From Anaerolineales bacterium (GTDB taxonomy: Bacteria > Chloroflexota > Anaerolineae > Anaerolineales > Villigracilaceae), in the NCBI GenBank assembly GCA_013360875.1, contig JABWAU010000013.1:1-47506 (forward strand): 47,506 nucleotides of DNA, read 5' to 3'. This document shows, piece after piece, positions 811 through 45,761 of this stretch. Every line of letters starts with the position of its first letter. Positions within the stretch are counted from its first letter, which is position 1. The notes below the pieces were generated by a model. It was not told the DNA's origin. It saw nothing but the letters and a program-made list of their open reading frames with translations, and made no database searches. A program made the translations under genes and the position numbers.

Positions 811-831
811 TATTTACCGTCCTCTGAACCA

Positions 832-1442: not shown

Positions 1443-2180
1443 TCAAACGCGGTTCAAATCGTGGTGTGGAAGAGCGCGCGCGATGGTCAATGCGTACACC
1501 TCCCGCGCGCCGGCCGAGCATAACGCCTCTGCGCAGGAGTGGATCGTGGAGCCGGTGGTCGCCACGTCGTCCATCAACAGAACCGACCTACGCTTCACAA
1601 TCTCCGCCTCAGCCTGAAACGCCTTCAAGACATTTTCCCTCCGCTCTGAGATGGTCAAACCGACCTGCGAACGGGTATCCCGGGATTTCCATAACCCCTG
1701 CGGGGCATATTGCAACCCAAGTTCATACGCAAGCGGCCGCGCGACCAGCCCAACCTGATTATACCCCCGCTCTTTCAACCGCTTTTTTCCAAGCGGCACA
1801 GGTATGAGCATGTCCACATTCCACTGCAGGGAACGGACGAAGCCCGCCATATCGCGCGCCAGCGCATCCCCGATTCCCATATTGCGGCGGTATTTCAGCG
1901 TGTGAAGGGCGTTCTGCACAGGGGAATCAAAAACCGCCCACGATCGCATCGTTCGATACGAGGGCGGGTTCGAGGCGCATTTTTCACAGGTAACGGACTT
2001 GTGGACCGGAATCCCGCATTTATCGCAAAACGGCTCTTCAATGCGCGGGACGCGCGCCCGGCAATCCGGGCACCATGCGCTTCCCGCCTTTCCGCAACCG
2101 CCGCACACCGGCGGGAAGAGAAGGTCTATCCCGCTCCACGCCAATCGGTAGATTCGATAGGACCACGGAATGTTATTCAC
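1443..2180 (-). CDS. comF: ComF family phosphoribosyltransferase-like protein
   Basis: The 245-residue product has the ComF/GntX layout. Two N-terminal four-cysteine zinc knuckles are visible (Cys26, 29, 37, 40 and Cys52, 55, 65, 68). A type I phosphoribosyltransferase fold follows, with the PRPP loop VLLMDDVATTGST near residue 205, and GYNQVGLVARPLA is the typical ComF core segment. In competent bacteria ComF works in DNA uptake; elsewhere its biochemical role is unclear, and no other competence gene is visible here. The start is GTG 2180 with no obvious ribosome-binding site, so the true start could differ slightly. The 103-base gap to tadC holds only a weak 5-bp hairpin (2249-2263). Confidence 0.88.
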   Translation of the reverse strand: MNNIPWSYRIYRLAWSGIDLLFPPVCGGCGKAGSAWCPDCRARVPRIEEPFCDKCGIPVHKSVTCEKCASNPPSYRTMRSWAVFDSPVQNALHTLKYRRNMGIGDALARDMAGFVRSLQWNVDMLIPVPLGKKRLKERGYNQVGLVARPLAYELGLQYAPQGLWKSRDTRSQVGLTISERRENVLKAFQAEAEIVKRRSVLLMDDVATTGSTIHSCAEALCSAGAREVYALTIARALPHHDLNRV

Positions 2181-2283
2181 GAATAACGCATTAGAAATAT
2201 CGTAAACGAAGTTCTACGAATTTTCCGTTTTGCCAAATAATGCAGTTGACTGCTTTATGCAGTAAAAGCCTGCCCGAAAAAGG

Positions 2284-3225
2284 TTATAACGTGAACGAAG
2301 CCATGATCTGGATGGCGGCTGGCGTCAGAATAATGATCATAATGGTCGGGAAGATCAGGAACGCCATGGGGAGGACCATCTTGACCGGCGCCTTATGAGC
2401 CTCCTCCTCCGCCGCCTGACGACGCTTCAAGCGCATCTGTTCGGACTGGATACGCAAAATCTTCGCCATGCTCACGCCGAGTTGTTCGCTCTGGATGATG
2501 GCGGCGACGAAGCTGGTCATTTCGGGAATGCCCAGCCTGTCTGCCATGTCCTTGAGGGCGTCGCGCCGCGTTTTGCCGAGTTGTATCTCGCGAATGGTCC
2601 TCGCGAACGCGAGAGCCAGCGCGTTATCCCACTTTTCGCTCACTTTGTTCATGGCGGCGTCGAAACCCAAGCCCGCCTCCACGCAGATCGTCAGCAGGTC
2701 CAACGCGTCCGGCATCGCTTTGCGAATCTCCCTTTGGCGGTTCGTGATCCGGCTCGAGAGCATCAGGTGCGGGAGGTAGAACCCGCCGAAGGTCGCCCCG
2801 AAAATAAATATGGCGTTATCGTTCAGGTTCGGCTCCGGCGAAAGCAGGAACATCGCCGTCACAAAGCCGCCCAGCATCACGGCAAGAATGAACCGTATCG
2901 CCAGAAAAGTGGCGGCATCTATGGGCCAGGGATTGCCCGCCAGTTCCATCCGCCTCGCCGTATCTTGTATCGCTTTTTGAGGGGTAAAACGCGCGGAGAT
3001 CTCCCCGATCCGCCGGACAATCGGAATGATGACCCGCTCGGTAAACGGTTGGGAGAGTTCGATTTCCTCCAGCGACACCACGTCGCCGCGCTGAAGGTAC
3101 TCAGCCAGCCGCGCCTGCAGGGGGTCCTCCTCCTCCTGCGCCCTCTGCCGCAATCCCACTGAAACCACGCCGATGACTACGAGCAAGATGACAAAACCGA
3201 TGGCGATCCATCCAACAATCGGCAT
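2284..3225 (-). CDS. tadC: Tad pilus inner-membrane platform protein, TadC-like (GspF fold)
   Basis: TadC and TadB form the membrane platform on which the TadA motor builds a Flp-type pilus. The 313-residue protein has an N-terminal membrane helix (about 5-24), a pair of helices after residue 100, a long cytoplasmic T2SSF domain (DALDLLTICVEAGLGFDAAM, then ALKDMADRLGIPEM and QSEQLGVSMAKILR), and a C-terminal helix. The ATG at 3225 is preferred over a TTG 12 bases upstream because GAGGTG sits six bases before it. That binding site overlaps the end of tadB, whose stop ends one base before this ATG, so translation is probably coupled. Confidence 0.88.
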   Translation of the reverse strand: MPIVGWIAIGFVILLVVIGVVSVGLRQRAQEEEDPLQARLAEYLQRGDVVSLEEIELSQPFTERVIIPIVRRIGEISARFTPQKAIQDTARRMELAGNPWPIDAATFLAIRFILAVMLGGFVTAMFLLSPEPNLNDNAIFIFGATFGGFYLPHLMLSSRITNRQREIRKAMPDALDLLTICVEAGLGFDAAMNKVSEKWDNALALAFARTIREIQLGKTRRDALKDMADRLGIPEMTSFVAAIIQSEQLGVSMAKILRIQSEQMRLKRRQAAEEEAHKAPVKMVLPMAFLIFPTIMIIILTPAAIQIMASFTL

Positions 3226-3226
3226 G

Positions 3227-4198
3227 TTACACCTCAATATCCGCGATCTTCTGCATCACAAAATAACCGGATACGATCAACCCCACGATGACCGAGATTG
3301 CGATGATCCCGCAGGCCGGCTGAGGGACAATACCGTTCTCGGCAAAAAATTGACCGATGTACTCGGGACTGATGAACCAAAGCGCCAGCGCGAGACCGAT
3401 CGGGATCATGGAAAGAATACCACCGGATGCCCGGACATTTGCCGTCATCACCCGGATCTCGCCCTTGATCCTGACGCGTTCACGGATGGTGAAGGATATG
3501 GTGTCCAGGATCTCGGAGAGATTGCCTCCCACCTCCCGCTGCACATTGATCGCCGTGACGACGAAATCGAGGTCGTCGCTCGGAATGCGGCGGAGGAGGT
3601 TGTCCAGCGCCTTCTCCATCGGAATGCCGATCTGCATTTCCTGAACGACCCGCCGAAACTCATCGGAAATGGGAGAGGGCAGTTCGCGGCTGACCGCCTC
3701 CATTGCCTGCATGGTCGAGTAACCGGCGCGCAAGCCGTTGACCATGAGGTTCAGCATGTCGCCCAACTGGTCGTCGAATTTTCTGATCCTGGCGACCTGT
3801 TGCTGCCTCACGTAAAAACGGGGCAGGAAGAAGCCAATAACCGCGCCGATCGCAAAGGATATATACCAGATATTAGGCTGAAGAAGGAGCGCGACCAAGC
3901 CCACCCCCACTGTGGAAATCACTATCAGCGCATAATACTCCGCGACCTTGAGTTTCAGGTCGGCGCGGGCAAGTTCGCGCGCGATCCGGTCTCCCATCGA
4001 GGAACTGGCGACTCTGCGGTTCAACCAATCCGTCACAATGGACCGGACGGCTGCCTGCTGGGCTTCCCTGGCTTCTTCGTCCTTTTCGAATTGACCGAGA
4101 CGCTCGTCCACGAGGGATCGTTCGCTCACAATCGTAACCACCACCCCCACGATCAGAAGTATCAATATCAGCGCGCCGCCAATCAGAATAAGATTCAT
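3227..4198 (-). CDS. tadB: Tad pilus inner-membrane platform protein, TadB-like (GspF fold)
   Basis: This 323-residue protein is the second GspF-type platform protein of the Tad system. It has an N-terminal helix (about 3-23), a helix pair near residues 90-125, the T2SSF segment (DDQLGDMLNLMVNGLRAGYS, then REVGGNLSEILDTIS) and a C-terminal pair of helices (about 260-315). The motif RAGYSTMQAME followed by EMQIGIPMEKALDNL is characteristic of TadB. It starts at ATG 4198, 20 bases after the tadA stop. It is paralogous to the adjacent tadC, as is normal in tad loci. Confidence 0.9.
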   Translation of the reverse strand: MNLILIGGALILILLIVGVVVTIVSERSLVDERLGQFEKDEEAREAQQAAVRSIVTDWLNRRVASSSMGDRIARELARADLKLKVAEYYALIVISTVGVGLVALLLQPNIWYISFAIGAVIGFFLPRFYVRQQQVARIRKFDDQLGDMLNLMVNGLRAGYSTMQAMEAVSRELPSPISDEFRRVVQEMQIGIPMEKALDNLLRRIPSDDLDFVVTAINVQREVGGNLSEILDTISFTIRERVRIKGEIRVMTANVRASGGILSMIPIGLALALWFISPEYIGQFFAENGIVPQPACGIIAISVIVGLIVSGYFVMQKIADIEV

Positions 4199-4218
4199 AA
4201 CCTTAACCTGCTTCGCAA

Positions 4219-5637
4219 TTAATAGCGCCGCCGTTCTCCAATGCCGAAAATGGACGGCGGCAAATTGATACCCGCCGCTTCGATCTTGTCAATGAACTTG
4301 GGCCTCAACCCGGTCGGTCGCAACCGGCCGATGACCTTTCCGGCTTCGACGCCGGTCTGCTCGAAGACGAAGATGTCGGTCATGGTGATTATATCCCCCT
4401 CCATACCGCTGATCTCGGTGATGTGGGTCACTTTACGAGTGCCGTCACGCATGCGCTCCTGGTGGCAAATAACGTCAATGGCGCTTGCCGTCTGTTCACG
4501 GATGGCGCGTACGGGGAGTTCCATGCCCGCCATCAAACACATCGTTTCCACGCGGGAGAGCGCGTCGCGCGGGGAGTTGGCGTGGGCGGTTGTCATGGAG
4601 CCGTCGTGACCCGTGTTCATGGCTTGAAGCATGTCCAGGGTTTCGCCGCCGCGGCACTCTCCCACGATGATTCGTTCGGGACGCATACGGAGGGAGTTGA
4701 TGACGAGATCGCGGATCGTGATCTCACCGCGACCCTCGATGTTGGGCGGGCGGGATTCGAGAGTGACCACGTGCTCCTGGCGCAACTGCAACTCCGCGGC
4801 GTTTTCGATCGTGATGATCCTTTCATCGTTGGGGATGAAGCCGGACAAGATGTTCAGGAGGGTGGTCTTGCCCGAACCCGTGCCGCCGGAAATCAATATA
4901 TTCAAGCGGGCTTCCACGCACGCCTTCAAAAACTGGATCGCTTCGTGCGTGATCGAGCCGAACTGGATTAGTTGTTCCACCGTGATGGGATTCTTCGAAA
5001 ATTTACGAATGGTCAGCGTGGGTCCGACGAGCGAGATCGGAGGGATAACCGCGTTGACGCGGGAACCGTCGGGCAGGCGGGCATCCACATACGGGCTCGA
5101 CTCGTCAATGCGGCGCCCCAGAGGCGCGACGATACGATCAATGACGCGCATCACGTGATCGTTGTTCTCGAAGGTGACGGGAACGCGATGCAATTTGCCT
5201 TTTCGCTCGATGTAAACATTCTTGGGCCCGTTGACCATGATTTCGGTGATGGTGTCGTCTTCCAACAGCGGCTGCAACGGACCAAGACCGAGAATTTCCG
5301 CCGCGATCTGCTCGAACAGGCGGGCGCGCTCGGGACGGGAAAGAACTATGTTCTCCTCGGCGAGTATTTGCTCGAAGAGGTCCTGGATCGTCCGGCGGAC
5401 TTCCTCCGTCCGGCTGATGTCCATGGTTGGATCCAGTTCGGAAAGCAGTTTGTTCTGGACGCGCGTTTTCAGGTCGAAGTAAGAGCCGGCCTGTGGAGAT
5501 GTGATAGGCGCATTCACCCTTCTCGATTGCAGTGAGGAAAGACGCGATCCTTCACCGCTGCCCTGGCTGGGCGAAGGCGGGGTCCCGCCGGAAGACGCGC
5601 CCCCTTGTCCCTGTTCGATTCTTTTTAAGAGAGACAT
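4219..5637 (-). CDS. tadA: Tad pilus assembly ATPase TadA/CpaF
   Basis: TadA is the hexameric secretion ATPase that drives pilus extension. The 472-residue protein has a disordered Gly/Ser/Pro-rich N-terminus (about 10-50), an N-terminal domain with IMVNGPKNVYIERKG, and the RecA-like motor domain. Visible motifs are Walker A GGTGSGKT (251-258), the Walker B/Asp-box region IIVGECRGGETLDML, and the His box GSMTTAHAN. The start is ATG 5637, and the sequence AAGGAGATGTAAATC lies just upstream. It sits between cpaE and tadB in one transcriptional direction. Confidence 0.95.
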   Translation of the reverse strand: MSLLKRIEQGQGGASSGGTPPSPSQGSGEGSRLSSLQSRRVNAPITSPQAGSYFDLKTRVQNKLLSELDPTMDISRTEEVRRTIQDLFEQILAEENIVLSRPERARLFEQIAAEILGLGPLQPLLEDDTITEIMVNGPKNVYIERKGKLHRVPVTFENNDHVMRVIDRIVAPLGRRIDESSPYVDARLPDGSRVNAVIPPISLVGPTLTIRKFSKNPITVEQLIQFGSITHEAIQFLKACVEARLNILISGGTGSGKTTLLNILSGFIPNDERIITIENAAELQLRQEHVVTLESRPPNIEGRGEITIRDLVINSLRMRPERIIVGECRGGETLDMLQAMNTGHDGSMTTAHANSPRDALSRVETMCLMAGMELPVRAIREQTASAIDVICHQERMRDGTRKVTHITEISGMEGDIITMTDIFVFEQTGVEAGKVIGRLRPTGLRPKFIDKIEAAGINLPPSIFGIGERRRY

Positions 5638-5681
5638 GATTTACATCTCCTTGCGAGTTATCGGCTCGCAATCGCTAAACA

Positions 5682-6899
5682 TTATTCGCCGCCGGATTCC
5701 TGCGCCGCAACCCGGGTTCGGACATTTTCAGCCAGTGCAAAGATACTGCGTGCAACAGGCTGGCTCTTATTATCCATCACGAATGGCACGCCGCGGTTGA
5801 CAGCCTTTACCGCCGTGACCTCGTCCGACGGAATGACCAGCGCGACCTCCTGCTTCAGGTTGTCCGCGACCCGTTCCGGTGTAATGTTCACCTTCCTGTC
5901 GTAGCGATTCATGATGAACATAATGCGGTCGCGTCGGATGCCGAGATTCTGCAAAAGGTCAAGGAAGAGGCGGCTGTTCTTGATGGAGGGGATATCCTGG
6001 GTGGTGACAAGCACAACGAGATCGCTCACGTCAATGGTAGCCAGGGTCAGGTCCGTCAGGATCGGCATGGTGTCAACGATCACGAAGGAATACAGTTGCG
6101 CGAGGAATTCGAGCATTTTACCGAACTGCGCGCTCGATACCTTGTCGGCATATTCAGGGCGGTTCGGCGCGGCAAGAATGTGAAGTCCCGTGGCGGAATG
6201 TTTGACCATGACCTCTTCGACGATCTCCGCGTCCAGTTCTTCCGCGCGCGGCGCGAGGTCGAGTACCGTGTTCTTGCCCTGTTCGTTGATGAACATGGCG
6301 ACGTCACCAAATTGCAGGTTTCCATCCACGAGAGCGACGCGGGTATCGGAATTCTTTAATGCAAGCGCCAGGTTGACCGCGATGGTGGTGCAGCCCGTAC
6401 CGCCTTTGGGACTGTAGACAACGACGATCTTTCCGCGCGGTCCCCGTTGGCCCGCAATCACGCCAGGCATGCCGACGAGGGGAGCAGATTGCACGCGCGC
6501 CGCCTTCGATTTTTCGACCTGCGCCATTTCACCGGCGCGGCGAATGGCGGAGATCAGTTCGTCGCCCATGGGCGGCTTGGTGAGGAAATCCCTGGCGCCC
6601 GCCAGCATGGCGCGTCGCATGTAGTTCTGGTCGCTTTGAACCGATAAAATCACAACCTGAACAGCCTGTTGTTTTGCGCGAATCGCTTCCGTCGCCGCGA
6701 TCCCGTCCATATCCGGCATGTTGATGTCCATCAGGACCACATCGGGATTCAGGTCCTGCGAAGCCTGGATCGCCTCCTTGCCGGTGCGCGCGATGCCGAC
6801 CACTTCCACGTCGGACTCGAATTGCAACAACTTTTTTACGTTCTCGCGCGTCTCGGAAACATCGTCCACGATCAACACACGAACTTTTTCGCCTGGCAT
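5682..6899 (-). CDS. cpaE: CpaE/TadZ-type protein: receiver domain fused to MinD/ParA-like ATPase
   Basis: CpaE/TadZ places the Tad machine, usually at a pole. Residues 6-125 are a response-regulator receiver with all phosphorylation residues present (Asp12/Asp13, acceptor Asp58 in LMDINMP, Ser86, Lys108 in LTKPP). Residues 157-400 are a MinD/ParA fold with a deviant P-loop, KGGTGCTT (165-172). The first signature Lys is kept, but Cys170 replaces the Lys of GK[ST]. Loss of that Lys is common in CpaE/TadZ proteins, whereas an intact receiver is less usual. ATG 6899 is favoured over an in-frame GTG nine bases upstream because AAGG lies at a good distance. tadA follows after 44 bases. Confidence 0.9.
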   Translation of the reverse strand: MPGEKVRVLIVDDVSETRENVKKLLQFESDVEVVGIARTGKEAIQASQDLNPDVVLMDINMPDMDGIAATEAIRAKQQAVQVVILSVQSDQNYMRRAMLAGARDFLTKPPMGDELISAIRRAGEMAQVEKSKAARVQSAPLVGMPGVIAGQRGPRGKIVVVYSPKGGTGCTTIAVNLALALKNSDTRVALVDGNLQFGDVAMFINEQGKNTVLDLAPRAEELDAEIVEEVMVKHSATGLHILAAPNRPEYADKVSSAQFGKMLEFLAQLYSFVIVDTMPILTDLTLATIDVSDLVVLVTTQDIPSIKNSRLFLDLLQNLGIRRDRIMFIMNRYDRKVNITPERVADNLKQEVALVIPSDEVTAVKAVNRGVPFVMDNKSQPVARSIFALAENVRTRVAAQESGGE

Positions 6900-6926
6900 A
6901 CTACGCACCTTGAAAGTGGGTTATTG

Positions 6927-7997
6927 TTACGGTTGAGCCTGGATAATGTCATTGGGCAACAGGGGAGGAGACAGGAAATCAATGCGAGGGTTTTGAGCGT
7001 ATGGAAGTTTGGACGGCAGCGAAATGTTGTATTGGGTCAAAACGCTCGTAAGCGTGGCGGATTGCGCGTCTATTTTGGACGTGTCGTTCGGATTTCGCAA
7101 CGTCATCGAGAACACGGCGCCGCTGTATATAAAGTAGTTCAGGGAAATGGAATCCTGCGGGGAAACCATCAACGTGATGATGTCGGGATTTTGCACGGTC
7201 TGCGTTGGCGTGGTCTGGGCGGCAGGATCCTCCGGAGCGGCAGTCTCCAGCCTGAGGGGGAAGTTTCCGAAATTCAGCACGATGACGTCCTGCAGGATGA
7301 TCTGGCAAACCAGGCGGGGGCGCTGCGGCTCGGAAGGCACCACGTAGATGGGTTTCTGGAAGGTCGGGTCGAGTTCCGTGCGTCCCTGCCGCGCCGCTTC
7401 TCCGGGGGTCGCCGGATCAATCGTGATAATGGGGCGACCGTCTTCCGGGAAGAATATATCCTGCATGGAGGAAAGGTAATTCGGAAGCAGTGATTGGTAG
7501 GCGGGATCAACGTCCACAAGAGTCATGCACACATTGACGTTCACGTGCGCGCCCTTATTGATGGCATAGGCGGACGTGGCGAGACGATTCGTCGGGATGG
7601 AAGCAGCCACCATGCCGACCGGAACCTGGAACGACCACGAAGGAGGAGGCAATTGACCAGCGCCTTCGCCGACCATCGAGGAGGTGATCAAAGTGCCGGG
7701 CTCCAGGTTGAACCGCGCGGTCTGACCGATCAGATTCACCTCCTCGCCCTTCTCGAACATGACCTCAACCACACGTTCCGGGGGCAGGGAGAACGTGCCC
7801 AACATTGCCTCGGTGATCACCGTGCCCTGGGGAATGTTCTGCACGGCATAGTAAACCTCTATTGTAGCCGCCTCGGTGGCAATTGAAACACTCGGCGCAA
7901 TCCCTCCGCCGATCTGGCTGCCGATAGCAAAATATACCAGCGCCAAACCAACGATCACGATCAATATGAGCAAGATCAATATTCTTCCGCGACGCAT
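6927..7997 (-). CDS. cpaB: CpaB/RcpC-like Tad assembly protein with SAF domain
   Basis: The 356-residue protein starts MRRGRI, followed by a single membrane helix (about 6-26) and an extracytoplasmic part. Residues about 45-110 match an SAF domain (QNIPQGTVITEAML, then LPPERVVEVM and GTLITSSMV), the hallmark of CpaB/RcpC proteins. The rest has low complexity with Pro/Thr/Gln stretches around residues 225-265. In diderms RcpC works with the secretin RcpA. No secretin is present here, so the partner is unclear. ATG 7997 has AGGAG upstream, and the frame before it shows nothing conserved. It is the first gene of the tad operon. Confidence 0.82.
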   Translation of the reverse strand: MRRGRILILLILIVIVGLALVYFAIGSQIGGGIAPSVSIATEAATIEVYYAVQNIPQGTVITEAMLGTFSLPPERVVEVMFEKGEEVNLIGQTARFNLEPGTLITSSMVGEGAGQLPPPSWSFQVPVGMVAASIPTNRLATSAYAINKGAHVNVNVCMTLVDVDPAYQSLLPNYLSSMQDIFFPEDGRPIITIDPATPGEAARQGRTELDPTFQKPIYVVPSEPQRPRLVCQIILQDVIVLNFGNFPLRLETAAPEDPAAQTTPTQTVQNPDIITLMVSPQDSISLNYFIYSGAVFSMTLRNPNDTSKIDAQSATLTSVLTQYNISLPSKLPYAQNPRIDFLSPPLLPNDIIQAQP

Positions 7998-8056
7998 AGG
8001 AAATTCTCCTCTCACAGTGTCCGCCAGGAACATCGGCAGATGTATCAGATTGAAAT

Positions 8057-8062
8057 ATTATA
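8057..8062 (-). promoter_or_regulatory. Candidate -10 box of the tad operon promoter
   Basis: On the - strand a perfect TATAAT lies about 60 bases before the cpaB start, in a local AT-rich patch just after the kinase operon terminator. No convincing -35 hexamer is seen at 16-18 bases, so this may be a weak or activator-dependent promoter. Its position after a terminator suggests the tad genes are transcribed separately from the kinase-regulator pair. Confidence 0.5.
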
Positions 8063-8090
8063 CAGTATAACCCCCAATTAATCATTTGGG

Positions 8091-8121
8091 AAAAAAGTAA
8101 GGCTCTGCCGCCGGGCAGAGC
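8091..8121 (-). terminator. Rho-independent terminator of the kinase/regulator operon
   Basis: Read on the - strand, the perfect 8-bp stem GCTCTGCC/GGCAGAGC (arms 8114-8121 and 8102-8109, four-base loop) is followed within a few bases by six T (complement of 8091-8096). It lies 29 bases after the kinase stop. Confidence 0.85.
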
Positions 8122-8149
8122 GATATTTACCGAAAATGGGGAAGACTAA

Positions 8150-9172
8150 TCAGGAACGGGCTGGAACGGCAAAGGTAATTCGAGCGCCTCTTCCAACCGC
8201 GCTGTCCACTTCGAAATTTCCACCCAGCATTTCCGCCCGTTCACGGATCAACTTCAACCCGAGACTGCCTCCCTGTTGAACGACATCCGGATCGAATCCC
8301 CGTCCATTATCGTCCACGCTGACGCGCACGCGGTCCTCGCCCATATCCAGCATGACCTTCACCTGGGTCGCCTGGCTGTGACGCGCGGCGTTCCCCAGCA
8401 ATTCCTGGAGCGCGCGAAACATCATGACCTCCAGATAAGGTTCGAGCCGCCTCTCGTTGCCCGTCACTGTCACGGTCACGTCGAGGGAGTTCTGTTCCTT
8501 GAACGCATCGGCATAGCGGCGGACGGTCGGCACCAGTCCAAGATCGTCCAGCATCATCGGGCGCAACTCGAATATGAAGTTACGCACCTTCTGGAACGTT
8601 CCCATTGCAGACGATTTGAGGTTGTTGAGTTCCTCCTTCGCCTGAGCGGGATCCACGTCGAACAAGCGCATGGCGATTTCCGTTTGCAGGATGAAATTGG
8701 ACAATGCCTGGGCGGGACCGTCGTGCATTTGCCGCGAGAGACGCTGGCGTTCCGTCTCCTGGGCGTTGACGAGCATTTCCACGCTTGCCAGGGTGCCGCT
8801 CTTGGCGCCGCCCGAAGCCGGGGCGGAGGCGGGATTGGACGGCGATGCCTGAACTCGTTCAAGGACAGTCTTGAGGCGTTCCAGGTGGTTCTTTTCAGCC
8901 TGGAGTTTTTCCAACTGTCCCCGCATCACAAAAAGGCGCTGCTGGGCGTCCAGGGCGGAGTCATAGGCGTTGCGAATCTCCTGCGGCGGCATGGAATCCA
9001 TCTGACCCTGCACCTGTTGAAGGTGAGCCGTGATCGCGGTATTACGCTGCGTAAGTTTGGAGAGTTCGCCCTGACTCTGCTCGATCATCAGGGTGACCTC
9101 GCGCAGGGCTTTCGTGGTTTCCTCGAGTTCCTGCTGAAGATCTAGTTCCGGGCCGGATGGATTTTCCATCAT
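8150..9172 (-). CDS. Cytosolic histidine kinase, DegS/NarX-type (HisKA_3)
   Basis: The 340-residue protein lacks any membrane segment. Residues about 10-110 are a heptad-rich coiled coil (Gln/Glu/Leu), then a short Ala/Pro/Gly linker, then the HisKA_3 phosphoacceptor helix QRLSRQMHDGPAQALSNF with His150. The C-terminal ATPase shows LLGNAARHS (N box), DDNGRGFDP (G1) and GSLGLKLIRERAEMLGG (G2). This layout resembles Bacillus DegS, which senses through its coiled coil. Its stop precedes a terminator, and its ATG lies four bases after the stop of the response regulator, so the two are co-translated and form a cognate pair. The input signal is unknown. The tad operon next to it is a plausible target, by position only. 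Confidence 0.93.
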   Translation of the reverse strand: MMENPSGPELDLQQELEETTKALREVTLMIEQSQGELSKLTQRNTAITAHLQQVQGQMDSMPPQEIRNAYDSALDAQQRLFVMRGQLEKLQAEKNHLERLKTVLERVQASPSNPASAPASGGAKSGTLASVEMLVNAQETERQRLSRQMHDGPAQALSNFILQTEIAMRLFDVDPAQAKEELNNLKSSAMGTFQKVRNFIFELRPMMLDDLGLVPTVRRYADAFKEQNSLDVTVTVTGNERRLEPYLEVMMFRALQELLGNAARHSQATQVKVMLDMGEDRVRVSVDDNGRGFDPDVVQQGGSLGLKLIRERAEMLGGNFEVDSAVGRGARITFAVPARS

Positions 9173-9175
9173 TCT

Positions 9176-9883
9176 CTAATGCTCCTGAGGTTTGATTCCC
9201 GTGTCCTGCAACTTTACCCAGCCGCGTTTCAGCGCATACACAACTGCCTGCGTGCGATCTTCCACGCTGAATTTACGCAGGATGGACGTTACGTGATTCT
9301 TGACGGTCTGGTGACTGATCCCCAACATGCTGGCGATCTCCTTATTGCTCATACCGCGCACGACGCAGGAAAGGACCTCCATCTCGCGGTCGGAGAGGGG
9401 ATGAAAGGGCGAGCCGGGCTCGCTATAGGACTTGCGCGCACCTTCCATTTGTTCGTCTATCCAGGCGTCCAGTTCGCGGCGGGTAAAGATGTTCCCCGCA
9501 ATGGCGTATTTCCCATCTGCCACCGCGCGGACGGTGCGCGCAAGAGCATCCGGTTCGATCTCTTTGGCACAATAGCCTGCCGCCCCAGCCAACATCGCGT
9601 GGATCGCCTGTTCGACGTCGTCGTACCCGGTCAACAGGATCACGCGCGTCGGCAGATGCTCGGAAGTGACCTGGTGAGTCACCTGTTGACCATTCATCTC
9701 CGGCATGTTCACATCCAGCACGGCGACCATCGGCTTGACCGAACGAATCAGGTTGATCGCTTCCATCCCGTTCGACGCCTGAGCGATCACGCGGAAATCC
9801 CTTTCGAGCGCCAGCACATCCACCACACCCTGACGGAACAACGGATGATCGTCTGCAATGATCAGTGTTATCTCTTTCATCAT
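9176..9883 (-). CDS. NarL/DegU-family response regulator
   Basis: The 235-residue protein has a receiver domain (residues 4-122; Asp11/Asp12, acceptor Asp57 in VLDVNMP, Thr85, Lys107), a linker of about 35 residues, and a C-terminal LuxR/GerE helix-turn-helix (about 163-222; LSDREMEVLSCVVRGMSNKEIASML then QTVKNHV). It binds DNA when phosphorylated by the adjacent kinase, by family analogy. The start is taken as ATG 9883 (a second ATG follows directly). Upstream reading would pass through the promoter. It is the first gene of a two-gene operon with a good promoter 35 bases upstream. Confidence 0.93.
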   Translation of the reverse strand: MMKEITLIIADDHPLFRQGVVDVLALERDFRVIAQASNGMEAINLIRSVKPMVAVLDVNMPEMNGQQVTHQVTSEHLPTRVILLTGYDDVEQAIHAMLAGAAGYCAKEIEPDALARTVRAVADGKYAIAGNIFTRRELDAWIDEQMEGARKSYSEPGSPFHPLSDREMEVLSCVVRGMSNKEIASMLGISHQTVKNHVTSILRKFSVEDRTQAVVYALKRGWVKLQDTGIKPQEH

Positions 9884-38528: not shown

Positions 38529-39845
38529 CTATAACACCGCGTCCACCATGATCGCCAGGAAGATGAACACGAGATACGTGCTGGACCACTTGTACATGCG
38601 CCAGGCGACCTTGTTCCCACCCTGCTTCCAAACCGCCCAGGCGGCATAGAGCAGCGCGCCGCCCAGAACAAGCGAAGAGACGAGATACACCGTCCCGGCA
38701 AGGTTTAGGAGCGGAAGCAATAACGTGACGATCACCAGTTCGATGGTGTAGACGAAGATCTGCTTGCGCGTTTCCAGTTCGCCGCGCACCACCGGCATCA
38801 TGGGCACGCCCGCCTTTTCGTAATCCTTCATGCGGACGATCGCCAGAGCCCAGAAATGCGGGGGCGTCCACATGAAGATGATGGCAAAGAGGATCCACGC
38901 CGTCCAGTCGAGAACGCCGGTCGCGGCGGCATAACCGACCATCGGAGGAATCGCTCCCGCCCCGCCGCCGATGACGATGTTCTGCACGGTCGCCTTCTTC
39001 AACCAGAGACTGTACAGGATCACGTAATAAACGATCCCAGCCAGCGAAAGCAAAGCCGCCAGCGAGTTCACGAAACATGCCAGAATGTAATAACTGACCA
39101 GCGATAGCCCAAGACCGAACGCGAGTCCCTCGGCATCCGTCAATCGTCCCTCCGCAAGAGGACGCCTGGCTGTGCGCTGCATCTTGCGGTCGAGTTCGCG
39201 GTCAATGTACTGGTTCAACGCGCTCGACCCGCCCGCCGCCAGCGCGCCGCCCAGCAGCGTCCACAGGGTCAATGAAAAAGAGGGCCACTGTTTCCCTCCG
39301 ACGACCAGCCCGCCGTAGGTCGTGATCAACAACAAACCCACGATCAGCGGCTTCGATAGGGCAAAGAAGTCCTTGGCGCGTTGTTTTTTATCAAAAGTCT
39401 CCGGCGGTGTCTCGGCCCTGATTAGCAAACCGGAAACGTAAACCAGCAAAAGGAGCGCGATCCACAAAGCCCACGTCGTCAGCCTGTGCAGAAGGATGAG
39501 ATGCCCCGCGCCGGGCTGAGTCACTTGAACGGCGCCCACCAAAGCCTGACCGAAGAACATGACCGTCAAAATGGTCGTCAGCGGCAGGATCACGCGCTGA
39601 TTGCGCTGCTCCCTCCACGCCTTGCGGAATACACCGAGCATCAAAATGGACGCGACTCCCACTAGCGACATGTGCGCCAATTTCATCCAGCCTGCGGGAG
39701 CGGTCGGCGCGCACAGGGGCCAGCCTTTGCAGAATGCCTCCGCGCCGGTCAACGTCACGATGCGCCCGGCAACCGTCAGCGCGACCACCGCAAAGAACAA
39801 CACGAAAACGTATTTCGAGAACGAAGACTGGAGCGAATATCTCAT
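38529..39845 (-). CDS. Fusion of half-length haem A synthase (CtaA) and haem O synthase (CtaB)
   Basis: Residues 1-145 are CtaA/Cox15-like: four helices, a Cys pair (Cys39, Cys45; CKGWPLC) and His58, His115 and His120. This is about half of a normal eight-helix CtaA, similar to the compact archaeal type. Residues about 155-438 are a UbiA prenyltransferase (CtaB): NQYIDRELDRKM (Asn211, Asp215, Asp219), KKATVQNIVIGGGAGAIPPM and FMWTPPHFWALAIVRMKDYE. CtaB makes haem O from haem B and farnesyl-PP; CtaA then oxidises it to haem A for the oxidase. The ATG overlaps the SURF1 stop by 4 bases, with AGGA upstream. Confidence 0.88.
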   Translation of the reverse strand: MRYSLQSSFSKYVFVLFFAVVALTVAGRIVTLTGAEAFCKGWPLCAPTAPAGWMKLAHMSLVGVASILMLGVFRKAWREQRNQRVILPLTTILTVMFFGQALVGAVQVTQPGAGHLILLHRLTTWALWIALLLLVYVSGLLIRAETPPETFDKKQRAKDFFALSKPLIVGLLLITTYGGLVVGGKQWPSFSLTLWTLLGGALAAGGSSALNQYIDRELDRKMQRTARRPLAEGRLTDAEGLAFGLGLSLVSYYILACFVNSLAALLSLAGIVYYVILYSLWLKKATVQNIVIGGGAGAIPPMVGYAAATGVLDWTAWILFAIIFMWTPPHFWALAIVRMKDYEKAGVPMMPVVRGELETRKQIFVYTIELVIVTLLLPLLNLAGTVYLVSSLVLGGALLYAAWAVWKQGGNKVAWRMYKWSSTYLVFIFLAIMVDAVL

Positions 39846-40576
39846 GCTTCCTGTTTCCTCAAATAGAACGGATAACCCGCGAACAAAATCGTCGCGAACG
39901 TGAACCACTGCAAAGCATACCCAAAATGCGGACCTTCCGTCAACTCGATCTCCGGCTGGTACGGGATCGGGGGAACGACGTCTCCCGCCGCCGCATCAGG
40001 CTGAACGTAAATAGTCAGTGCGGGATACGGCATCTGACGCGCGATCCTCTCGATGTCGGCGTTGTTCCACACCCAAAGCGGACTTCCGTCCGCAGGCAGC
40101 GCGTCGGCAACCCCGCCGAAGGCTGGTTTGCCCTGCCCGAGCCGTATCTGCCCCGTGACCGTCACGACGCCCGGCTCATCGTACTTGCGCCAGTCTGCCG
40201 GGGTGGAATTGCCGTCAGCGGGGATCCAGCCTCGGTCCACGAGGACAGCCGTCTCTGCGAAACGAAGCGGGGTCAGGAGGTGGTATCCGTATTGGTCGCC
40301 GTGATACTGATTGCGGATCGCGATCTGATTCTCGAAGTCATACTCCCCGGTGACCATCGCCGCGCGCCATTCCATTGCCGCAATCGCATCAAAGCCATCG
40401 GAATTCAAATCCAGCGGCGGCATGGCGCGCATCGTCTCAACCTGTGTGTTGAAGGCCCGCCGCTGATCGAGACGATCCAACTGCCAGATGCCCAAACGGA
40501 CGCACAGCGCGGTCCCCAGGAATACAAGGGTGGTCGTGAACAACCACCTGCGATGGAACATCCTACGCACGAGCAT
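39842..40576 (-). CDS. SURF1 family oxidase assembly protein
   Basis: The 244-residue protein has the SURF1 layout: N-terminal helix (about 11-29), LGIWQLDRLDQRRAFN, a large outer domain with GYHLLTPLRF and LVDRGWIP, then a C-terminal helix preceded by GPHFGYALQWFTFATILF. SURF1 proteins help insert haem a into subunit I. The ATG at 40576 gives a 14-base overlap with the previous gene; a second start at 40561 is also possible. It is coupled to the CtaA-CtaB gene by a 4-base overlap. Confidence 0.9.
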   Translation of the reverse strand: MLVRRMFHRRWLFTTTLVFLGTALCVRLGIWQLDRLDQRRAFNTQVETMRAMPPLDLNSDGFDAIAAMEWRAAMVTGEYDFENQIAIRNQYHGDQYGYHLLTPLRFAETAVLVDRGWIPADGNSTPADWRKYDEPGVVTVTGQIRLGQGKPAFGGVADALPADGSPLWVWNNADIERIARQMPYPALTIYVQPDAAAGDVVPPIPYQPEIELTEGPHFGYALQWFTFATILFAGYPFYLRKQEA

Positions 40577-41063
40577 CTTTTTTCTTCACGGGAAGGATGA
40601 AACTATACAACGCGATCAGGACGCCCATGGGAATGCCCGCAAAAAGAATGCCGTACAGGCGCGTGCCGATCGTGAGGGGCTCGCGCACGTCCAGCCCGAA
40701 ATAATTGCCGGGCTGAAAAGTGCATTCGTAGGCGAGGCTTTCCACCCGTCCAAGAGGCAACCGCGCCGACGAGTTCGCGGGGATCCACAACGGACCCAGT
40801 TTGTGGTCAACCGCATCGTCGTTCCTTACCACGAGCGTATCGCCGACCACGAAGACCATATCCGTCGGGATGGAGGGAGGCTGTTCGCCGCGCGCAACCT
40901 GCTCCGCCGCGCCGGGCGGAATGACCAGCGCGATCTCCTGCGGAGGGCGAGCCGTCTCCCGCAAAAAGATGAACGGTATCTCGCTGATCGCCGCGCCGAG
41001 GATCAGCCCGACCGCCAACGAAATGAAAAGCCTTTTGAGAAGAATATTCAGTGGAGGCATCAT
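40563..41063 (-). CDS. Uncharacterised membrane protein of the oxidase assembly operon, cupredoxin-like outer domain
   Basis: The 166-residue protein has two helices (about 10-28 and 136-157) with about 100 residues between them that would lie outside. The outer part is beta-rich: TDMVFVVGDTLVVRNDD, then His87, LWIPANSS, Cys114 and FQPGNYFG. This pattern resembles a cupredoxin-like sandwich, but a full type 1 copper site is not visible; one His and one Cys are candidates. It is fixed between SCO1 (4-base overlap) and SURF1 (14-base overlap), so a role in copper delivery or oxidase assembly is likely by context. I do not recognise the family. Confidence 0.75.
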   Translation of the reverse strand: MMPPLNILLKRLFISLAVGLILGAAISEIPFIFLRETARPPQEIALVIPPGAAEQVARGEQPPSIPTDMVFVVGDTLVVRNDDAVDHKLGPLWIPANSSARLPLGRVESLAYECTFQPGNYFGLDVREPLTIGTRLYGILFAGIPMGVLIALYSFILPVKKKDARA

Positions 41064-41674
41064 CCACCCTCTTTGAGAATCAACTTGAGATCGTGAACGA
41101 TGTCCTCCACGGGCGTATCGAACCCGAACGAGAGGCGCAGGTTCCCGTTCCCGTCAACCAACGTCACGCGCGCCGTATGATTCACCAGATACCCCGCCGC
41201 GGACGTGCCTTCCACAATCTCACGGAACACGCCATAGGCGTTCCAGACTTTCGACAATTCCTCCTCGGGCCCGCTCAACCCGATGAAGTCCGGGTTGAAA
41301 TGATTCACGTATTCCTGCGCGCGTTCGGGCGTGTCGCGTCCGGGGTCGACCGTGACGAACACGACCTGCACTCGCGCGGCTTCCTCCGCCTTCAGGCCCT
41401 TCATCGCCTGGTTGAGTTCCGCCAGCGTTGTGGGACAAATATCCGGGCAGGAGGTATAGCCGAAGAAGAGCAAGACGACCTTCCCCCGCATCCCGCTCAA
41501 CTGGAACCTGCTCCCGTCCGCCCGAGCCAGCGTAAAATCCGACGCGGGAGGATACGGTTCGGTGTAGATCGTGCCGCGAAACCCGGCGGGCTTTACAAAG
41601 AAGACCGTCCACGCGGCGACCATGCCGATCAAAACGAGTGAGCCGAGACCAACGAGCAACGTTTTTCGATCCAT
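41060..41674 (-). CDS. SCO1/SenC copper chaperone
   Basis: The 204-residue protein has an N-terminal helix (about 5-27) and a thioredoxin-like outer domain with TSCPDICPTTL (Cys76, Cys80) and His166 (LVNHTAR), the three copper ligands of SCO proteins. It delivers copper to the CuA site of subunit II. The start is ATG 41674 with AGG upstream. It is the first gene of the assembly operon SCO1-unknown-SURF1-CtaA/B, and its TGA overlaps the next ATG (ATGA). Confidence 0.93.
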   Translation of the reverse strand: MDRKTLLVGLGSLVLIGMVAAWTVFFVKPAGFRGTIYTEPYPPASDFTLARADGSRFQLSGMRGKVVLLFFGYTSCPDICPTTLAELNQAMKGLKAEEAARVQVVFVTVDPGRDTPERAQEYVNHFNPDFIGLSGPEEELSKVWNAYGVFREIVEGTSAAGYLVNHTARVTLVDGNGNLRLSFGFDTPVEDIVHDLKLILKEGG

Positions 41675-41837: not shown

Positions 41838-42605
41838 TTACACAATGGCGGTGCCGACCAGATAGAGCGCGGGGTAGAAAACGATCCACACCACGTCCAC
41901 GAAATGCCAGTACACCGCCGCGGCTTCGACCGGGTAGTGCTTTTCATCGTACAGTCCGCGCCGGCCGTTGAACCAGACGATGGCAAGGAAGATCAAACCG
42001 GTGAACACGTGGAAGGCGTGCATTCCGGTCATCATGAAGAAAGCCGCGCCTGCGGGTCCGTTGTCGGGCTTGATCCCCTCGTGGATGGCGTTGGGCCACT
42101 CCACAAAGACCACGCCGATCAAAAAGCCAAGTCCCAGGAGGAACGTGATCAACGTGTTCGCGAGGAAACCCCTTCGATCCCCGTTCGCGATCATGGTCTC
42201 GCCGCGGTTCATAAAGAAGGACGAGATCAGCAGGATGGCGGTCACGAACAAGCCGAGGGTCTGGTCCAGGTGAGGACGCGTGAGTCCGAGCAGGTTCATG
42301 CGCATCACCAGCAAGCCCCCGAACACGAACGAGTCCGAGACGAGGAACAGCCACAATCCCACGCGGTTCGTGCCGGACTTGTATTCGTAAGAATGGTGAT
42401 CGCCCTCGTGTTCGGCGTTCAGTTTGTAGATGTGCATGTAGTAGTAGACGACCAGCGCGCCCTTGACGAGCGCCACCGCGACCAGCACCGCGGTCGAATT
42501 GAAGGAAAGCGCAACGAGAAATTCCAGGACGGTCAATACTGCCAGGTAGACGAAAATGAATACGCCCTGGTTCAACATGGACCTCTTGTTTTGTGTATGT
42601 GCCAT
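41838..42605 (-). CDS. ctaE: Cytochrome c oxidase subunit III with N-terminal COX4-like segment
   Basis: The 255-residue protein has two parts. Residues about 12-62 form two helices ending LVKGALVVYYYMHIYKL, which resemble bacterial subunit IV (COX4_pro, helix with K and FMHL-like end). Residues from about 78 are a short, five-helix COX3, with GTNRVGLWLFLVSDSFVFGG, FMMTGMHAFHVFTGLIFL and AVYWHFVDVVWIVFYPALYL. Subunit III supports stable activity of the caa3 oxidase. GGAGG lies about ten bases before ATG 42605, 17 bases after ctaD. An alternative reading is that the two helices are simply helices 1-2 of a seven-helix COX3. Confidence 0.88.
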   Translation of the reverse strand: MAHTQNKRSMLNQGVFIFVYLAVLTVLEFLVALSFNSTAVLVAVALVKGALVVYYYMHIYKLNAEHEGDHHSYEYKSGTNRVGLWLFLVSDSFVFGGLLVMRMNLLGLTRPHLDQTLGLFVTAILLISSFFMNRGETMIANGDRRGFLANTLITFLLGLGFLIGVVFVEWPNAIHEGIKPDNGPAGAAFFMMTGMHAFHVFTGLIFLAIVWFNGRRGLYDEKHYPVEAAAVYWHFVDVVWIVFYPALYLVGTAIV

Positions 42606-42622: not shown

Positions 42623-44677
42623 TTAGTGTTTTCCGCCCCTGGCGGGAATGAATTCGACGTATTTCGACCCGGGCAGACCGTAATCGTACGGTTCGCCGAC
42701 CACCTCGAAGGGTTGTTCGTAGTTATGCGAGGGCATCGGCGAGGGGACCTGCCATTCCGGCGAGCGCGAGTTCCACACGTTGCCCTCCGCTTTTTCTCCG
42801 TGCTTGATGCTGTGGAAGAGGTTGACGATGAATATCAACACGGAGAGCGCAATGGCGAACGCGCAGATCGTCAGGATGAGATGCGTAAAGTCGAAGCCGA
42901 GCGCGGGGTCATAGTCCGCGATGCGTCGGCGCATTCCCAGCAAGCCCACGCGCATCATGCCGAAGGTCAGGATGAGAAACGAGGGCGTCATCAGCCAGAA
43001 ATGAACCTTGCCCCAGAACTCGTTCATGCGGCGGCCCGTCGCTTTGGGGAACCAGTAGTAGATGGCGGCAAAGAACGGGAAGACGAATCCGCCGAAGATC
43101 GTATCGTGGAAGTGACCGACGATGAAATAGGTGTCGTGCAGGTGCAGGTCAACGGAGACGGTGGCGTTCGGAGGTCCCGAAAGACCGCCCATCAGGAAGA
43201 CCACGATCGCGCCAAGCACGAACAACATCGGCGTGGGGGTCGAGATCTTGCCGTTCCAGATGGTCGCCACCCACGAGAAGAACTTCACGCCGGTCGGCAC
43301 GGCGACGAGCAGCGTGCTGTACATGAACGGCACGCGCAGGTATTCGTTCATGCCGGAGGCGAACATGTGATGCGCCCAGACCAAAAAGCCGACCAGGGCA
43401 ATCCCCAGCGAGGACATGGCGACCCAGCGATACCCGAACAACGGCTTGCGGACGAAGACCGGCAGCAGTTCGGAGATCACGCCCAGGCCGGGAAGCACGA
43501 ACACGTACACCGCCGGGTGCGAATAGAACCAGAAGAGATGCTGGAACAATACCGGGTTGCCGCCCTTTGCCGGGTCGAAGAATCCCATGCCGAACAGACG
43601 CTGGAACATCACCAACTGGAACGAGAGACCGATCAACTGCGTGGCGGTCAGGGCGATGATGGAAGTGGCGATCGAAGCCCAGACGAAGATCGGCAGGCGC
43701 ATGGAGGTCATTCCCCTGGCGCGCATCCGCAGGACGGTGGCGATCACGTTCAACGCGCCCAGGATCGAAGACCAGCCAGCCACAAACACGCCGAGGAAGA
43801 ACATCTGTTGACCGACCGGCGCCTTCGCGGAGAGCGGGGGATATCCCGTCCAGCCGGTATCGAACCCACCAAGCACGAGGCTCATCAGCAGAAGCACGGA
43901 GGCAGGTACCGAAACCCAATAGGCGAACGCGTTCAGGCGCGGGAACGCCATATCCTGCGCGCCGAGCAGGAGAGGCACGGCGTAGTTGATGATGCCCGAA
44001 ATGCCCAGCAGGATCGAGACGATCATGATCATCCCGTGCAGGGACATCAACGTATTGTAGAGTTGCGGTCCGTTCTGACCGAAGAGGCTCATGTCCACGT
44101 TGAGGAATTGCAAGCCCGAAGCCGCGAGTTCCGTGCGGAATATCAACGCGAAGGTGCCGCCCACCGCGATCAGGAACAAAGCGGTAATCGTGTACTGGAT
44201 GCCGATCACTTTATGATCGAGCGAGACGCCCAGATATTTTTCCCAGCCCGGTTCGTCTTCGTGATGTTCGGGAGTGTCAATGCCGCGCGCCCATTTGACC
44301 CAATCATCCATGACGCCGACACCGAACAGGAAGGCGACCGCGCCAGCCAGCGCGCCGAACACCCAGGCGGGCTCGGTGAAGAAGAAACCGCTAAAAACCG
44401 ACAGTCCCCTCGCGGCGCGGATGCCGGTCACGATGAAGCCGCCAATCAGCGTCCACACGACTTGATAGACCAGCCCGCGCGTGATGCCGCGGTAGCCATA
44501 CACGCCGAAGAAGAAGGCGGTGAAGGCAAAGAGCAGCGCAAACGCCGAAGGCACGGGAGCCGTCCAGCGCACGCTCTTCATGATGAGCGCGTCAATTCCC
44601 AGCCCGATGAAGTAACCAATTACCCCGGCAATCAGCAGGAACAACAAACCGCTTCCTACGGTATATTTTCTTTCCAT
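42623..44677 (-). CDS. ctaD: Cytochrome c oxidase subunit I, A2-type, with N-terminal extension
   Basis: Residues about 150-640 are COX1: LHGMIMIVS (haem a His), FWFYSHPAVYVFVLPGLG (CuB His; YS motif in place of the D-channel Glu), WAHHMFASGMN (CuB His pair), PTGVKFFSW (K-channel Lys) and VGHFHDTIFGG (haem ligands). The YSHP form marks an A2-type oxidase. Before the core there is an extension of about 150 residues with four extra helices, which normal subunit I lacks. The total is 684 residues. The start, ATG 44677, has GGAGG nine bases upstream. It lies between ctaC and ctaE in one operon and reduces O2 with proton pumping. Confidence 0.95.
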   Translation of the reverse strand: MERKYTVGSGLLFLLIAGVIGYFIGLGIDALIMKSVRWTAPVPSAFALLFAFTAFFFGVYGYRGITRGLVYQVVWTLIGGFIVTGIRAARGLSVFSGFFFTEPAWVFGALAGAVAFLFGVGVMDDWVKWARGIDTPEHHEDEPGWEKYLGVSLDHKVIGIQYTITALFLIAVGGTFALIFRTELAASGLQFLNVDMSLFGQNGPQLYNTLMSLHGMIMIVSILLGISGIINYAVPLLLGAQDMAFPRLNAFAYWVSVPASVLLLMSLVLGGFDTGWTGYPPLSAKAPVGQQMFFLGVFVAGWSSILGALNVIATVLRMRARGMTSMRLPIFVWASIATSIIALTATQLIGLSFQLVMFQRLFGMGFFDPAKGGNPVLFQHLFWFYSHPAVYVFVLPGLGVISELLPVFVRKPLFGYRWVAMSSLGIALVGFLVWAHHMFASGMNEYLRVPFMYSTLLVAVPTGVKFFSWVATIWNGKISTPTPMLFVLGAIVVFLMGGLSGPPNATVSVDLHLHDTYFIVGHFHDTIFGGFVFPFFAAIYYWFPKATGRRMNEFWGKVHFWLMTPSFLILTFGMMRVGLLGMRRRIADYDPALGFDFTHLILTICAFAIALSVLIFIVNLFHSIKHGEKAEGNVWNSRSPEWQVPSPMPSHNYEQPFEVVGEPYDYGLPGSKYVEFIPARGGKH

Positions 44678-44696
44678 TCCAGATTCCTCCGCCAAA

Positions 44697-45704
44697 TTAT
44701 TTCAGCGTCTTGATGTATGCAATGATGTCCGCCACCTGCTCATCGGTGAAGTTGTAGGCAGGCATCTGCTGCGCTTCGAATCCAGCCACGATCTTCGCCT
44801 GAGGCTGAAGGATGGATTCCTTCAGGAAGGCATCATCCGCAACGACCGTCCCGCCGCCGCTGAGCGGCACTTCGGAGCCAGCCAATTGGAACCACGTCGG
44901 ACCGACTCCCCCTGAACCGTCAATCGAGTGACAGGCACGGCAGCCATTGGCAGTCACCAGCGCCAAACCGCGTCCTTCGGGGGTTTGCCCGGCTTCCGAC
45001 GCCAGCGCCTGCTGCTCTGCCACCCATGCCTCGAAAGCGACCTTTTCCACCACAATCACCGGCGCTTCCATGTAGGCGTGTGAAGTGCCGCAGATTTCGG
45101 CGCAGCGCACCTTGTACGTATCACCAATCAGTGTCGGAGTGATGCGAAGTTCGGTCACGCGGCCAGGCACGAGGTCCTGTTTGACGCGGAATTCAGGCAC
45201 CCAGAAGGAATGGATCACGTCCCGCGATTCCATCTTCAAAAGCGCCTGTCTGTTAACCGGCAAATACAATTCATTCGAGGTGATTCCGTAATCGGGATAA
45301 TCGAACGTCCATCCCCACTGGTAACCGGTGACCCGTACCACCATCGCGTCGGGATCCACGCGGCGCGTTTCCGCAAGATTTTCCGCCCCGATATACGCCA
45401 TTCCCAAAACCATGAAGAGCGGAATGATCGTCCATACGATCTCAAGTGTGGTGTTCCCTTCGATGTGTTCGGCGTCGCTCGTATCCCCCTTGCGCCGGCG
45501 AAAAACGAACAGGCTGTACACCATGGGAACCACGATGAGCGCAAATAGGAACGTCATGGCTTTGATTTGCAGATCCCAAAGCCAGTCAATGGGACCGGCT
45601 TGAGCGCTCGCAGGGACTGGCATTAGCCCCACCGTGTGGAGTCCCAGGTATGTGAGGACCGCCACCGCAACAACCAGAATTCCCACAACCACAAAGTGTC
45701 GCAT
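44697..45704 (-). CDS. ctaC: Cytochrome c oxidase subunit II with fused cytochrome c (caa3 type)
   Basis: The 335-residue protein has a hydrophobic N-terminal segment (4-22), two helices of subunit II (about 45-68 and 88-108), and the CuA domain with His165 and CAEICGTSH/M (Cys201, Glu203, Cys205, His209, Met212). A C-terminal cytochrome c domain carries CRACH (Cys255, Cys258, His259) and a distal Met in QQMPAYNF. It accepts electrons and passes them to subunit I. AGGAG lies about ten bases before ATG 45704. It is the first gene of the structural operon. Confidence 0.96.
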   Translation of the reverse strand: MRHFVVVGILVVAVAVLTYLGLHTVGLMPVPASAQAGPIDWLWDLQIKAMTFLFALIVVPMVYSLFVFRRRKGDTSDAEHIEGNTTLEIVWTIIPLFMVLGMAYIGAENLAETRRVDPDAMVVRVTGYQWGWTFDYPDYGITSNELYLPVNRQALLKMESRDVIHSFWVPEFRVKQDLVPGRVTELRITPTLIGDTYKVRCAEICGTSHAYMEAPVIVVEKVAFEAWVAEQQALASEAGQTPEGRGLALVTANGCRACHSIDGSGGVGPTWFQLAGSEVPLSGGGTVVADDAFLKESILQPQAKIVAGFEAQQMPAYNFTDEQVADIIAYIKTLK

Positions 45705-45761
45705 ACAAACTTTCTCCTGGTACAAAATGAAACTTGGACTTCTCCAGTCCACAACCGCTCT

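Follow-up and report, generated by a model that had tools for sequence, protein, structure and literature searches.

Gene X and the oxidase gene cluster

The complete stretch of DNA that was analysed (47,506 bp; contig JABWAU010000013.1 of the Anaerolineales bacterium assembly GCA_013360875.1) is referred to below as the window. It contains a cluster of cytochrome oxidase genes, all on the minus strand. Read in that direction, the cluster comprises ctaC, encoding oxidase subunit II with the CuA motif CAEICGTSHAYM and a cytochrome c domain (frame as listed bp 44697-45752, portion searched bp 44700-45707), and ctaD, encoding subunit I with the sequence YSHPAVY (bp 42623-44695, PF00115); we take YSHPxVY in CtaD to be the signature of A2-type oxidases. 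These are followed by ctaE for subunit III (bp 41838-42605, by Pfam), a SCO1/SenC gene (bp 41060-41674, PF02630 with E 1.2e-41, plus a CXXXC motif), the gene under study, which we call gene X, a SURF1 gene (bp 39842-40576, PF02104 with E 4.5e-41) and a gene for a CtaB-type (UbiA) protein (bp 38529-39908, by Pfam). The CXXXC motif of SCO1 and the CuA motif of CtaC indicate that the oxidase of the window has a CuA site that needs loading. Two of the products look like oxidase gene fusions: CtaE starts with a COX4_pro match just below threshold, and in the CtaB-type protein a weak, sub-threshold COX15/CtaA match in the N-terminal half precedes the UbiA domain.

Gene X occupies bp 40563-41063 (stop codon included) and, according to the open reading frame list and its translation, encodes 166 residues from an ATG start. 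It overlaps the SCO1 gene by 4 bases (ATGA, bp 41060-41063) and the SURF1 gene by 14 bases (bp 40563-40576). Hydropathy analysis showed hydrophobic windows of 19 residues starting at residues 3–18 and 132–142 on either side of the middle part of the protein; they correspond to an N-terminal helix (about residues 7–35, bp 40959-41045) and a C-terminal helix (about residues 132–157, bp 40593-40670). His87 (codon at bp 40803-40805) and Cys114 (bp 40722-40724) are the sole His and the sole Cys of the protein. The gene length, both overlaps, the two strongly hydrophobic stretches and the count of one His and one Cys all agree with the preliminary description of the locus, which gave no strand. Lys10-Arg11 are close to the beginning of the first helix, and the second helix is followed by KKK; from this placement of charges both termini are probably inside, with the domain on the outer side of the membrane. 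Of the 78 copies of the family, 77 have the N-terminal helix and 44 the C-terminal one. We annotate the product as a putative membrane-anchored degenerate cupredoxin.

Distribution of the family and gene order around gene X

Among 298 genomes of the class to which the window belongs, a single-sequence search yielded X matches in 38 (own genome and weak matches counted); among 400 genomes of the phylum Chloroflexota, a profile search did so in 64 (own genome counted). At E up to 10, the window's own genome (a 3.99-Mb assembly) had a single match. Among named relatives, the nearest are on a contig of Chloroflexi bacterium CFX6 (97% identity) and in an Anaerolineales MAG (69%). Five close copies, compared in all 10 pairings, had a dN/dS of 0.10–0.19. 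Since the matches recur across class and phylum and the dN/dS is low, we consider gene X to be a real gene, beyond chance. A contig scan that reached close relatives only revealed 3 X loci, titled Chloroflexi or Anaerolineales; loci L031-L033 may be from species that are also represented among the sampled genomes. Viral contigs, searched with the profile of the 25-copy close set, contained no X, and plasmids, searched with the X of the window and the copy of L061, gave no match. The protein of the window matched no family in Pfam or NCBIfam, and so the earlier statement that it belongs to no known family holds for these two collections.

The family set consists of 78 X copies from Chloroflexota, the close set of 25 copies, and the context set of the 77 copies besides that of the window. 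Left out of the neighbour and residue counts were six class matches with E 1e-3 to 5e-3 (G169, G227, G096, G200, G172 and G071) and nine weak phylum matches with E 2e-5 to 8e-4 (G449, G483, G392, G446, G338, G469, G625, G544 and G627), which might be located away from SCO1. Neighbour distances are based on stop-to-stop frames, and in some cases the contig ends near X.

SCO1 was the commonest neighbour of X among those tested; on the strand of X, it was no more than 400 bp away in 54 of the 77 loci and no more than 1.6 kb away in 64. CtaC, CtaD or CtaE was encoded on the strand of X in the fetched stretch of 35 loci, and 69 loci had either one of these genes or SCO1 within 1.6 kb. PCuAC was found within 1.6 kb in 24 loci, 22 of which also had SCO1; its identity was confirmed by Pfam models in L111 and by PF04314 in L053, L054, L066 and L122. 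The prevailing order was SCO1-X (39 loci), followed by PCuAC-SCO1-X (11) and SCO1-PCuAC-X (8); the orders X-SCO1 (3), X-SCO1-PCuAC (2), PCuAC-X (2) and X-PCuAC-SCO1 (1) were less frequent, and in 11 loci neither gene was near. In L116 and L136 the mutual order of SCO1 and PCuAC is not settled, because both match one frame; these frames beside X (L116, bp 5467-6741; L136, bp 6152-7705) suggest fused SCO1-PCuAC proteins. Within the window's own family, L122 has the order SCO1-PCuAC-X-SURF1 inside an oxidase cluster. The X copies are related, so that neither the loci nor the counts are independent, and the varied gene orders across families are a better argument for linkage than the raw counts.

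The preliminary description had raised the question whether homologues always lie beside ctaC/D/E or SCO1. This is the case for most copies, not for all: in 8 of the 77, SCO1 was not within 1.6 kb and the stretch had no cta genes (L047, L060, L062, L066, L098, L134, L135 and one of the two X copies carried by L105). Of these, L066 and L134 have PCuAC adjoining X. The X of L047 (genome G233) precedes SURF1 and a CtaB-type gene, and four upstream genes with Pfam matches are unrelated. In four loci (L099-L102) X follows CtaE, and SCO1 was not found nearby. The proposed link to A2-type oxidases stood in part, with CtaC, CtaD or CtaE in 35 of 77 loci, against 42 copies outside a visible oxidase locus, some of them because of a contig end. 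SCO1 was within 1.6 kb in 34 of these 42; the tie of X to copper chaperones is stronger than that to the A2 oxidase.

In the window's clade, most of the fetched loci had SURF1 on the strand of X. Together with the 14-base overlap in the window, this would fit a role of X in haem A delivery with SURF1 and CtaA/B; however, SURF1 was not found in the loci of the distant X copies, which adjoin SCO1 and PCuAC instead. We therefore regard haem A delivery as extremely unlikely, and haem assembly, one of the two functions suggested earlier, is not supported, the loci in which SURF1 was found being those of the window's clade. Copper delivery, the other function, has kept its support (SCO1 within 1.6 kb in 64 and PCuAC in 24 of the 77 loci), which is still of the positional kind from which the suggestion had been made.

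The same association was seen in the gene content of the genomes. In the order to which the window belongs, SCO1 (counted by hand) was present in 24 of the 25 X-containing genomes and in 1 of the 11 without X (Fisher P 5e-7, kinship ignored), and COX2 in 25 of 25 and 2 of 11, respectively. In the phylum sample SCO1 was detected at E 1e-10 in 57 of 64 genomes with X versus 179 of 336 without (Fisher P 2e-8, kinship ignored). The latter 179 genomes show that SCO1 does not need X. Seven of the 64 genomes with X had no SCO1 at E 1e-10, and one of these (G233) also had no PCuAC at the threshold used. PCuAC was present in 21 of 25 chosen genomes with X, including the window's own, where it is on another contig; X is therefore not a stand-in for PCuAC. 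Aerobic life alone may be the cause of the co-occurrence of X, SCO1 and COX2.

Several loci have an unusual composition. In three of them (L060, bp 7039-8685; L062, bp 6476-8020; L057, bp 325-1563) the X domain forms the N-terminal part of a longer protein, which ends in a cytochrome c domain in L060 and contains CxxCH in L062. In L055 (bp 6880-7635) one protein has a YtkA-like domain (PF13115, E 1.2e-9) and, after it, the X domain, with SCO1 and PCuAC downstream. L056 (bp 4014-9221) contains X, a protein with cytochrome c domains and SCO1, in this order, with a NosD/ABC protein and an ABC-2 permease upstream; given these neighbours, the X of L056 may serve another copper enzyme, for instance nitrous oxide reductase. 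Finally, in L111 (bp 821-4320, genome G402) PCuAC-SCO1-X is located beside type III-A CRISPR genes (Csm2 and Csm1/Cas10).

The probable cupredoxin fold and the ligand positions

Profile-profile comparison supports the placement of the predicted outer domain with the cupredoxins. In hhalign, the profile of the 78 X copies matched a set of 29 local cupredoxins (29 of 30 loci found in relatives) at 97.4%, with P 1.2e-11 for this one comparison. The close set alone (25 copies) matched at 91.9% (P 6.9e-7), and 41 distant copies alone at 97.6%. The His and Cys columns of X superposed on the copper-ligand positions of the cupredoxins. Alignments of SCO1, SURF1, CtaC and CtaE gave only 0.25–0.97% (SCO1 0.79%, CtaC 0.97%), and 30 column-shuffled X profiles reached at most 1.7% against the cupredoxins. 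The cupredoxin set did match CtaC, whose CuA domain is cupredoxin-like, at 92.1%, whereas X did not; the evidence for the fold of X thus comes from one comparison set. The earlier label "cupredoxin-like" is supported at the level of these profiles (97.4% against at most 1.7% for unrelated controls).

As regards the Greek-key beta sandwich of cupredoxins, AlphaFold models, made from an input of four sequences (window, L031, L032 and L033), had a pLDDT of 48.6 for the whole protein and 43.3 for the domain alone. With values this low, the fold is deduced from sequence only, and the beta-rich character of the domain in the preliminary description is predicted from the cupredoxin profile match only. 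Against solved structures the X profile had 3 matches up to E 10, the best ones weak. Blue copper protein 5fc9 and amicyanin 1sfd matched at E 0.3 each, which is suggestive only. The top match, a biofilm surface protein (E 0.01), covers profile positions 36–83 only; it looks like chance and was rejected.

A family scan of 25 members at E up to 1 returned 12 families, mostly unrelated and each in at most 3 members, Copper-bind being matched by one member (E 0.11). Sub-threshold matches to cupredoxins in Pfam were seen in 3 of 10 distant members, and to plastocyanin or amicyanin in NCBIfam in 2 of 10 (a set that partly overlaps with the former). The curated cut-offs of PF00127, PF13473 and the NCBIfam plastocyanin and amicyanin models were reached neither by the X of the window nor by the distant members scanned. 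Because unrelated families score equally good E-values in distant members, the cupredoxin matches in these family scans alone prove nothing.

The conservation of His87 and Cys114, the two residues singled out in the preliminary description, differed between the close and the complete set. Both were present in all 25 copies of the close set. In the complete set Cys114 was conserved in 77 of 78 copies and His87 in 57, being absent in 21. These residues occupy the Cys position and the first His position of cupredoxins. The second His position is residue 117, three residues after the Cys; it is Gln in the window (codon at bp 40713-40715) and His in 31 of the 78 copies. All 31 copies with His117 have the spacing C-x2-H-x4-[M/I/L/F], which is the loop spacing of plastocyanin. 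In 76 of 78 copies the Cys was accompanied by one or both of the ligand-position histidines. The exceptions are L135, with Val, Cys and Ser at the ligand positions, and L134, with an alignment gap at the Cys column and a Cys just after it in the reading frame.

Different combinations prevailed in different parts of the family. The window has His-Cys-Gln and consequently lacks the complete type-1 set of His, Cys and His; the same combination was found in 27 of 78 copies (window included), all within the window's tree clade of 37 rows. In the remainder of this clade, residue 117 is Arg, Val, Ile, Leu or Cys in 7 copies and His in 3. Val, Ile or Phe, followed by Cys and His, was found in 20 copies, mostly of families f71 and f107, which presumably are Chloroflexus-type. 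His-Cys-His was complete in 11 copies, and 67 lacked at least one His. In the X copy of L047 (bp 7409-7918, genome G233), residue 117 is a second Cys (CSFC).

The tree of X was made from 78 rows and 89 columns and is unrooted; 39 of its 74 inner branches are open and several branches are long. On this poorly resolved tree the fewest changes were 1 for the presence of His87 and 12 for the state at position 117. The absence of His87 from 21 copies and these 12 changes show that the site is not uniform. A natural reading, on a tree without a root, would be that an ancestral type-1 site gave up opposite histidines in different branches. A Cys with one His could plausibly bind Cu(I) at low coordination but would be poorly suited as a type-1 site.

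These data bear on three other explanations. X could be an electron-transfer cupredoxin or an accessory subunit of the oxidase that feeds CuA or stabilises electron entry, as AcoP of Acidithiobacillus ferrooxidans, which maintains optimal oxidase activity (available text of PMC4059628). The cupredoxin profile, the cta genes in 35 of 77 loci and the 11 copies with His-Cys-His are in line with this. However, AcoP has the putative ligand set H85, C159, H166 and M171 (available text of PMC4059628), whereas at least one type-1 His is missing from 67 of the 78 X copies, and of the 42 loci without CtaC, CtaD or CtaE in the stretch 34 have SCO1 within 1.6 kb; we consider an electron-transfer role unlikely.

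Within the site Cys114 varies least, and it is the only Cys in the X of the window; SCO1 is the commonest tested neighbour. X could thus be a thiol partner, with Cys114 forming a mixed disulfide with, or protecting, the CXXXC of SCO1 or the cysteines of CuA, and with the His tuning the thiol. The copper-site Cys of cupredoxins is usually shielded from solvent, however, and the ligand-position His that accompanies the Cys in 76 of 78 copies would be unneeded for such a role, which makes a thiol partner quite unlikely.

A metal-free scaffold, tethering SCO1, subunit II or subunit I by means of its helices and a dead cupredoxin domain, would account for the presence of a helix at each end of many copies (44 of 78 have the C-terminal one) and for the incomplete ligand set in 67; it is very unlikely in view of the Cys and at least one His still present at the ligand columns of 76 copies. 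The SCO1/PCuAC context and the retained Cys and His are the reasons for which we prefer copper delivery.

Putative role in CuA loading and comparison with known systems

X is probably an unrecognised part of the copper-insertion machinery for cytochrome oxidase. In the proposed mechanism, X would be a cupredoxin derivative tethered at what is predicted to be the outer face of the membrane, and would belong to the copper-delivery module for CuA loading, with SCO1 and, in many loci, PCuAC. Most copies would have a type-1 site minus one His, in which the Cys and the other His are retained, and would no longer be blue-copper electron carriers. Cu(I) would be held by Cys and His at low coordination and passed at the membrane surface to or from SCO1, or to the CuA site of subunit II, the direction and the contact with SCO1 being conjectural. 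We favour this mechanism as a whole, with modest confidence. A more specific proposal is that SCO1, PCuAC and X form a three-part CuA relay of the Chloroflexota, in which the fold of an electron carrier would now serve to carry Cu(I) at a two-coordinate Cys-His site, different branches of the family having lost opposite histidines; we put this forward tentatively, as a possibility.

We therefore describe X as an unnamed cupredoxin-like family of Chloroflexota and a putative member of the CuA metallochaperone module. If this is true, an unnamed family linked to SCO1 and PCuAC across a phylum adds a component to that module, which according to the available text of a 2019 review is always built from a few protein families (PMC6696091). 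The opposite absences of His among the branches would constitute a natural mutant series for the possible conversion of a blue-copper site to one of copper transfer, and a protein without any Pfam or NCBIfam model would obtain a concrete, testable function.

Our search of the open-licence literature found no description of an X protein, nor a report on SCO1 with cupredoxin and Chloroflexus. In the available part of the genome paper on Chloroflexus aurantiacus, SCO1 genes and auracyanins are named and gene X is not mentioned (PMC3150298), and "Chloroflex" is absent from the main text of PMC9145763. For Anaerolinea thermolimosa, the available part of PMC8756737 lists GAP05465.1 (SURF1) and GAP05467.1 (SCO) but does not include GAP05466.1. 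The latter would fit X.

Of the known systems, bacterial CuA loading uses Sco and PCuAC, the latter being cupredoxin-like (available text of PMC9145763 and PMC6696091). PCuAC (PF04314) shares with X the cupredoxin-like fold and the outer location, both predicted in the case of X, and its being encoded with SCO1 in many X loci, and it acts on CuA (same sources), as X is proposed to do. Unlike PCuAC, X has helices; with its one His the X of the window cannot hold the PCuAC motif H(M)X10MX21HXM, and it gave no match to PF04314.

Type-1 cupredoxins such as plastocyanin and amicyanin (PF00127, PF13473) share the His and Cys columns with X, and the copies with His117 share the loop spacing; X differs in lacking one His in 67 of 78 copies and in having a helix at one or both ends. 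AcoP, a membrane-bound protein encoded beside oxidase genes, is to our knowledge the nearest oxidase-associated cupredoxin. As may hold for X, it is a cupredoxin acting together with a cytochrome c oxidase, but from its description it is set apart by a full putative ligand set with the spacing C-x6-H-x4-M (available text of PMC4059628).

SCO1/SenC (PF02630), the neighbour of X, is likewise a membrane-anchored copper protein with Cys and His that functions in CuA assembly, the copper role of X being putative. It differs from X in its thioredoxin fold and its CXXXC motif; X has one Cys, no match to PF02630 and a profile-profile value of 0.79%. Finally, CtaK of Bacillus subtilis is an extra CuA assembly factor besides Sco (available text of PMC9145763). 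X would resemble it as a small additional factor, its role being putative, and is set apart by the description of CtaK as a lipoprotein with conserved His and Met.
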